In this document: one piece after another, positions 18,899-20,516 of the stretch
Position numbering within the stretch: the first letter of the stretch is position 1
How the letters are laid out: each line of letters opens with the position of its first letter
Source of the DNA: Sphingomonas sp. TZW2008
GTDB taxonomy: Bacteria; Pseudomonadota; Alphaproteobacteria; Sphingomonadales; Sphingomonadaceae
Reading direction: 5' to 3'
DNA: 64,000 nt
NCBI RefSeq assembly: GCF_002117915.1
Contig: NZ_BDJB01000003.1
Span: 434,001 to 498,000 of the forward strand
Made by a program: the position numbers and the translations under genes
Notes under the pieces: generated by a model
Told to the model about the DNA's origin: nothing
The model's input: the letters and a program-made list of their open reading frames with translations, nothing else
Database searches by the model: none

Positions 18899-19207
18899 AT
18901 GCGTAAGATGTTGCTGGCGCTCGGCGCCTCCGCGATGGTTCTGCCAACGCTCGTCGCCACCACGACCGAGGCGGACGCGCAGCGCCGTTACAAGTATCGC
19001 GAATGGCGCGGCAACGACGGCCGCCTGCGCTGCCGCAAACCGAACGGCACGACCGGCCTCGTCGTCGGCGGTGTCGCCGGCGCGCTGCTCGGCCGCACGA
19101 TCGACACGCGCGGCGACCGGACGCTCGGCACGCTGGGCGGTGCTGCCGTAGGCGCGCTTGCCGGTCGCGAGGTGGAGCGCGGGACGAGCAGCCGTCGCTG
19201 CCGCTAA
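18899..19207 (+). CDS. Glycine-zipper 2TM-domain secreted protein
   Basis: Product of 102 residues with a signal peptide (MRKMLLALGASAMVLPTLVA, cleavage near DAQ), a basic RRYKYREWRGNDGRLRCRK region, then a glycine-zipper segment GLVVGGVAGALLG and LGTLGGAAVGALAGREVE. Two conserved Cys lie near the linker and the end. Such proteins sit in the cell envelope and may act in outer-membrane stability or stress, but the function is unknown. The start follows AAAGGAAGAG. A rho-independent terminator follows at 19234. It is a paralogue of the frameshifted gene at 19807. Confidence 0.8.
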   Translation: MRKMLLALGASAMVLPTLVATTTEADAQRRYKYREWRGNDGRLRCRKPNGTTGLVVGGVAGALLGRTIDTRGDRTLGTLGGAAVGALAGREVERGTSSRRCR

Positions 19208-19284: not shown

Positions 19285-19713
19285 ATGCCCGTTCACAGTG
19301 GTTCCGCCCGGTACGAAGGCCTCGGCAAGGACGGCAAGGGTTGGGTATCAACCCAGTCGGGCGCGCTCGCCGATCAGTCCTACGGCTTCGCCACGCGCTT
19401 TGAAGACACGCCGGGGACGAACCCCGAGGAGCTGATCGCCGCCGCGCACGCGAGCTGCTTCACCATGGCGCTGAGCTTCGCACTCGCGCGCGCCGGACAT
19501 ACGAAGGGCACGCTCGAGACGCACGCCAAGGTCAGCCTGGAAAAGGATGGCGACGGCTTCACCATCACCAAGTCCGAACTCGATCTGCGTGCCAGCGTGC
19601 CGGGCATCGCTGCCGCCGACTTCGATCACATCGCAGCGGAAGCAAAGGCAAATTGCCCGGTGTCAAAGGTACTTAAGGCGGAGATCACGCTTAAGCATTC
19701 GCTCGCCGAGTAA
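19285..19713 (+). CDS. OsmC-family peroxiredoxin
   Basis: Thiol-dependent peroxidase of 142 residues for organic and fatty-acid hydroperoxides. The paired redox cysteines are Cys58 (AAHASCFTMALS) and Cys124 (AKANCPVSKVL). The N-terminal TNPEELIAAAHA belongs to the OsmC branch rather than the Ohr branch, and a separate Ohr is encoded at 45080. A ribosome binding site AGGAG lies 9 bases upstream. It is set between two glycine-zipper genes, which suggests an envelope or stress island. Confidence 0.93.
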   Translation: MPVHSGSARYEGLGKDGKGWVSTQSGALADQSYGFATRFEDTPGTNPEELIAAAHASCFTMALSFALARAGHTKGTLETHAKVSLEKDGDGFTITKSELDLRASVPGIAAADFDHIAAEAKANCPVSKVLKAEITLKHSLAE

Positions 19714-19806: not shown

Positions 19807-20351
19807 ATGCGTATCGTTCTTGCCGCGGCGCTCGCCGCGACCACCGTCGCCGCGATGCCTGCGACCGCCCAGTCGGGTGCGGCGCGCGAATATCGTCAGG
19901 ACGTCCGCCAGGCGGAGCGCGACTATCGCCGCGATCTGCGCAATGCCGATTCGCCGCGCGACGTGCGCCGTGCCAATCGTGAATATCGCCGTGATGTGCG
20001 CGACGCCCGTCAGGATTATCGTCGCGACTATCGCCAGTGGCGCCAGTTCGACTACAATCGTCTGCCGCCGGGTCAGCGCTATTATTACGCCGACAGTTTC
20101 TATCGTGACGGCCGCTACTACCAGCCGCGCCGCCTGTCGCGTGCCGACCGCGTCTATCGCGGCAACAACGGCCGCTACTATTGCCGCCGCGGTGACGGCA
20201 CGACGGGCTGATCATCGGCGGTCTGGGTGGTGGCGTGCTCGGCAGCCTGATCGCGAACGGCCGTTCGAACACGCTCGGCGCGCTGCTCGGCGCAGGCGCA
20301 GGCGCGGCGCTCGGCGCGTCGATCGATCGCGGCAACGTGGTCTGCCGCTGA
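19807..20351 (+). pseudogene. Glycine-zipper secreted protein, frameshifted
   Basis: The first frame (19807-20211) encodes a signal peptide (MRIVLAAALAATTVAAMPATAQ), an Arg/Asp/Tyr-rich repeat region (EYRRDVRDARQDYRRDYRQW) and YYCRRGDGTTG, then stops at TGA 20209. Reading on in another frame from about 20207 gives LIIGGLGGGVLGSLIANGRS and LGALLGAGAGAALGASIDRG ending in CR, which is the expected glycine-zipper tail. The paralogue at 18899 has GTTGLVVGGVAG in one frame. One C appears to be missing in GGGCTGATC at about 20207. The total of 545 bases is one short of a multiple of three. It is either a real frameshift or a sequencing error. The start follows AAGGAG by 7 bases. Confidence 0.8.
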
Positions 20352-20391
20352 AGGTAAATCGTTTCAGCCGGAAGTAACGGCGCGTACCCCG

Positions 20392-20427
20392 GGGCTCGGC
20401 GAGTGATCGCCGGGCCCTTCCCTTTTC
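20392..20427 (+). terminator. Rho-independent terminator
   Basis: An 11-bp stem with one G-U pair (GGGCTCGGCGA / TCGCCGGGCCC) closes a GTGA tetraloop and is followed by TTCCCTTTT. It lies 41 bases after the second glycine-zipper reading frame. Confidence 0.75.
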
Positions 20428-20516
20428 CGGCCCGCGGGATCGATGCAGTCCGGCGCGATTATTCGGAACTCCGCCAATCGTCGCCGCCGTCCGCGCCGCC
20501 TGCTAACACCTGCTCC

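Follow-up and report, generated by a model that had tools for sequence, protein, structure and literature searches.

A gene of Sphingomonas sp. TZW2008 within the 64,000-nucleotide stretch of DNA analysed here (the window) changes reading frame at the border between an Arg/Tyr-rich head and a glycine-zipper tail, which raises the question of whether the bacterium has lost one base, whether the deposited consensus has, or whether the break belongs to a mechanism such as programmed frameshifting or phase variation. As deposited, the head frame comprises 134 codons (19807-20208) and is closed by TGA at 20209-20211, directly after ...YYCRRGDGTTG, and the LIIGGLGGGVLGSL...NVVCR tail takes over in the -1 frame at 20208 and runs up to a TGA at 20349-20351. 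At 545 bases, the whole (19807-20351) would need one more to be divisible by three. In a Pfam scan the tail matched PF05433 (glycine zipper 2TM domain) at 33 bits (E 5.5e-8; gathering cut-off 24.2 bits), and since this lies above the cut-off, the split does not reflect a chance frame. The stop at 20209 precedes the zipper domain, so PF05433 falls outside the open frame of the head; scanned alone, the head gave no match to PF05433 at E up to 1, and no Pfam match above cut-off. An AAGGAG site can be read upstream of the start at 19807, and the break sits inside a 667-kb contig, away from its edges (see Table 1 for coordinates). The initial annotation, made from the letters alone, had described the stop after CRRGDGTTG, the tail in another frame ending at 20351, the length one base short of a multiple of three, and the GTTG-LVVGG junction in a single frame in the neighbour at 18899-19207, and translation and counting bore out all of these. 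Its naming of one C as the lost base is not established, as the alignment with the sister genome puts the single gap slightly elsewhere and its placement is ambiguous.

Table 1. Features of the broken glycine-zipper gene and its surroundings (positions in the window).
Feature	Position	Strand	Basis
Truncated ORF: signal-like N-terminus, charged Arg/Tyr-rich head, YYCRRxDGTTG, TGA 20209	19807..20211	+	Translation, orthologues; signal judged by eye
Out-of-frame tail: 47-aa glycine zipper 2TM domain, Cys-Arg end, then TGA	20208..20351	+	PF05433; protein identical in G183
Junction with frame break: one-base net loss relative to listed relatives, G_GGC tetramer beside TGA	20199..20212	+	
Terminator-like hairpin with T-rich tail, following the gene	20391..20428	+	1 found versus mean 0.6 in shuffles, weak by itself; very similar sequence in sister
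Intact short glycine-zipper neighbour, Cys-GTTG-zipper-Cys-Arg layout	18899..19207	+	
OsmC-family gene between the two glycine-zipper genes	19285..19713	+	PF02566, E 1.4e-18

With the intact 181-residue protein of the nearest relative (G183) as query and a threshold of E 1e-20, a match, paralogues included, was found in 292 of the 295 Sphingomonas genomes, the exceptions being G184, G210 and G260; the gene is widespread in the genus. Among the best 150 of the 292 matching genomes, listed with one match per genome, only the window's own genome (G000) has an internal stop. The initial annotation had named relatives that all share the same stop as grounds for its refutation, which is not what the relatives show; each of the 149 other listed genomes lacks an internal stop, 148 of them extending to the last query residue (one, G060, matched only from residue 56) and G148 ending at residue 173. 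In a closer examination of 35 orthologue loci, the zipper shared a single open frame with YYCRRxDGTTG in 31 and with FYCRRNDGTTG in the remaining four. Two intact orthologues were also scanned with Pfam, the sister gene scoring 29.6 bits and the orthologue L034 scoring 28.4 bits against the PF05433 cut-off of 24.2. Literature searches combining glycine zipper or Rick_17kDa_Anti with Sphingomonas returned no published study of the gene, the one paper that came up being about a Stenotrophomonas secretion system, though a study that these searches missed may exist.

The nearest relative, in which the gene is intact, shares 92.8% DNA identity with the window's genome over 567 kb. The tail proteins of the two are identical, and the 8 base differences between them are all silent and in third positions, with 129 of the 423 possible single changes in the tail expected to be silent. 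Without constraint, 8 of 8 silent changes would arise with a chance of ~7e-5 if the changes are treated as independent, although the G183 side would be under constraint in any case, so that only changes on the branch of the window's genome are informative. By outgroup majority (five loci), four of the eight changes, one of them weakly, fall on the branch of the window's genome, and all four are silent (chance ~0.009, or ~0.03 without the weak one), which implies that the break occurred late, or is an error, or that the tail is still translated. Neither further lesions nor relaxed constraint were found in the gene, given that every tail difference is silent. The unique internal stop among the best 150 genomes and the lack of decay in the tail support the loss of one base where head and zipper meet, a single and very recent deletion within this strain or culture, which we regard as the probable event, if by no means a secure one. 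Much the same observations speak for an error of sequencing or assembly, in which the strain has an intact gene and the consensus misses one base in the GC-rich junction; the other listed genomes are free of the stop, the divergence of the tail from the sister is wholly silent, and a lone frameshift without decay is exactly how a consensus error would appear. We consider such an error a quite plausible alternative, though held with less confidence than the deletion.

Evidence against an error came from the junction itself, where the longest run is GGG, accompanied by two ACG units, and no long homopolymer is present, and from a survey of frameshifts between the window's genome and G183. When 430 coding-like frames, covering 460 kb of G183, were checked in the window's genome, 25 were flagged, two of them as strong rows; the reverse direction, with 429 frames, flagged 30, again with two strong rows. 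One strong row in each direction was the aconitase gene, which is open in both genomes and was flagged through an over-long 5' end, and the other strong row of the reverse direction was a gene open in both genomes from a common methionine onward. Inspection of the strong rows thus left the gene at 19807 as the sole surviving internal frameshift among the 430 frames, and none among the 429 in reverse. Early filters had flagged many frames (e.g. 112 of 290 in one direction), which we took as mostly antisense shadows and over-long 5' ends, and a run with a third-position filter and overlap removal retained one strong frameshift in 297 frames and none in 288 in reverse, together with 15 and 24 weaker frameshift rows and 11 and 16 in-frame-stop rows. 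The survey of 430 and 429 frames covered a larger stretch at looser thresholds than this run. The frameshift is an isolated event. That only one break survived among 430 frames argues against a generally error-rich assembly and makes a consensus error less likely, though possible.

The published expectation pulls the other way: Antonov et al. (2013), working on 1106 complete genomes, expected that, where BLASTp validates the frame transition of a singleton, the cause is an error of sequencing and not a genuine indel (PMC3711429). Weighing a base error against a real deletion, we find the deletion somewhat favoured. The initial annotation had offered a recent deletion or a sequencing error, and both of these stand, the listed relatives being intact and the tail undecayed; the break is either a commonplace, recent mutation or an error of sequencing, and not a new mechanism.

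Three other explanations were tried and rejected on the evidence of the relatives, the repeats, the RNA fold and the undecayed tail, namely a programmed frameshift, a repeat-driven switch and an old pseudogene. We did observe a G_GGC tetramer directly before the new stop, which a check for heptamers only would miss and which was absent from the initial annotation; the latter's statement that the slip site matches no known frameshift heptamer is correct, in that no X_XXZ_ZZN was found. Programmed or tolerated -1 slippage at ACG_GGC_TGA would give some full-length protein beside the truncated one, and both the unspoiled tail and this Z_ZZN-type tetramer, placed in the needed -1 direction, agree with it. 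However, none of the 149 other listed genomes has the frame transition, and a stimulatory fold is absent by a method that leaves pseudoknots aside (20180-20300, z = +0.96, with 169 of 200 shuffles folding at least as well). Nor is G_GGC among the motifs that rose above background with a stimulator in E. coli, in the available part of a survey in which tetramers without a stimulator averaged 0.147% against a background of 0.112%, i.e. were barely or not shifty alone (PMC4066793). Slippage is accordingly very unlikely in our estimation. An old pseudogene, or two separate genes, might be suspected from the two abutting open frames, but the gene has no further lesion, its tail protein is identical to that of the sister, no start codon (ATG, GTG or TTG) occurs in the tail frame ahead of residue 10, and the listed orthologues are single frames, all of which makes this explanation more doubtful again. 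Least likely of all is phase variation by slipped-strand mispairing, which the initial annotation had entertained as a phase-variation-like change; a one-base change in an otherwise intact gene would suit it, but there is no repeat tract beyond GGG and the two ACG units, no direct repeat spans the junction, and no listed relative carries an off-phase copy.

The position of the break had also been presented as exact to the domain border, and this claim divides into two parts. Once one base is lost from the intact sister gene, translation would pass into a frame whose only stops are at codons 135 and 148, so any one-base loss in the head ends the protein at the border and the position of the stop is unremarkable. 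That the break itself lies within a few bases of the border does remain remarkable, and is a post hoc coincidence that we put at perhaps 2% (~10 of 545 positions). The locus carries a caution in this respect, as a protein cut so neatly at the edge of a domain gives an impression of design, yet the loss of any one base in the head would produce it.

If the deletion is real, the cell would secrete an Arg/Tyr-rich head that lacks both the one membrane anchor predicted for it and one cysteine of a conserved pair. Ribosomes would stop at TGA 20209, and a head of ~110 residues would be exported; this head would probably be unable to enter the membrane, since no anchor other than the zipper is predicted and there is no lipobox cysteine, and the conserved cysteine would have lost its partner. 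Confirmation by reads would make this a natural anchor-less allele of a gene widespread in the genus. A further reading, to which we give a slim chance, is that the deletion is both real and favoured, with the lineage using the freed soluble head and perhaps trace full-length protein made via G_GGC_UGA slippage; if so, the loss of a single base would free an envelope protein from its anchor and make it soluble.

The cysteine in question is the only one in the window's head, the one of YYC just before the zipper. A conserved cysteine stands just before the zipper in the orthologues as well, where a Cys-Arg end follows the zipper in 35 of 35 loci, and a rough count on stop-to-stop frames minus the first 25 residues finds a single cysteine in the head for 30 of 31 orthologue frames. 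This arrangement suggests a disulfide that may close the membrane hairpin at its periplasmic side, and the two conserved cysteines that flank the zipper hairpin in the intact orthologues may merit more attention than the break. The genome encodes five other glycine-zipper proteins, and the cysteine pairing of this conserved layout, Cys-(2-4 residues)-GTTG-2TM glycine zipper-Cys-Arg-stop, recurs in four of them; the fifth, an OmpA-like protein (L069), is without it. The structure model of L034 with five orthologues was poor (mean pLDDT 48.8), its only two confident helices, both charged, spanning residues 26-47 and 51-82, with ten-residue blocks from 31 to 70 at 83-88 pLDDT.

Two homologues elsewhere in the genome, C3:639072-639359(-) and C5:57926-58417(-), are open throughout and full length, and could buffer the loss. 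The first of them (L002), taken together with its upstream sequence, has the same C-terminal layout together with, by eye, a lipobox-like ...VMVTGC N-terminus, and is probably a lipoprotein version. Across 30 loci, the window's own included, the 1.5-kb flanks of the long gene, which two contigs cut short, held a match to the short glycine-zipper gene over 74 residues or more in 23 and the OsmC gene in 17.

Among known systems, the locus resembles the singleton frameshifted genes of GeneTack surveys (PMC3711429) in being confined to one genome, having intact homologues and keeping a tail that still matches Pfam, and set against those singletons nothing in this gene is distinctive. It also resembles PF05433 (Rick_17kDa_Anti) proteins, as the tail and both scanned intact orthologues exceed the curated cut-off, but differs from them in that, in this genome, head and zipper are not encoded in one open frame. 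In its intact form the protein is probably like other 2TM glycine-zipper outer-membrane proteins, with a hairpin that would pack in the membrane and oligomerise and a basic head that would be periplasmic. SlyB, an outer-membrane lipoprotein of E. coli, forms an oligomeric ring round outer-membrane proteins. With a profile of six intact orthologues, SlyB (PDB 7ojf/7ojg) was the best solved-structure match in a sequence search of the PDB, over residues 139-181 at a weak E of 0.24. Both proteins have a 2TM glycine zipper; unlike SlyB, the Sphingomonas protein has a head without an N-terminal lipobox cysteine that is long, basic and helical, and the deposited ORF is without the zipper. By analogy with SlyB, which is not a claim of membership, the intact protein may thus have an envelope-stabilising role.
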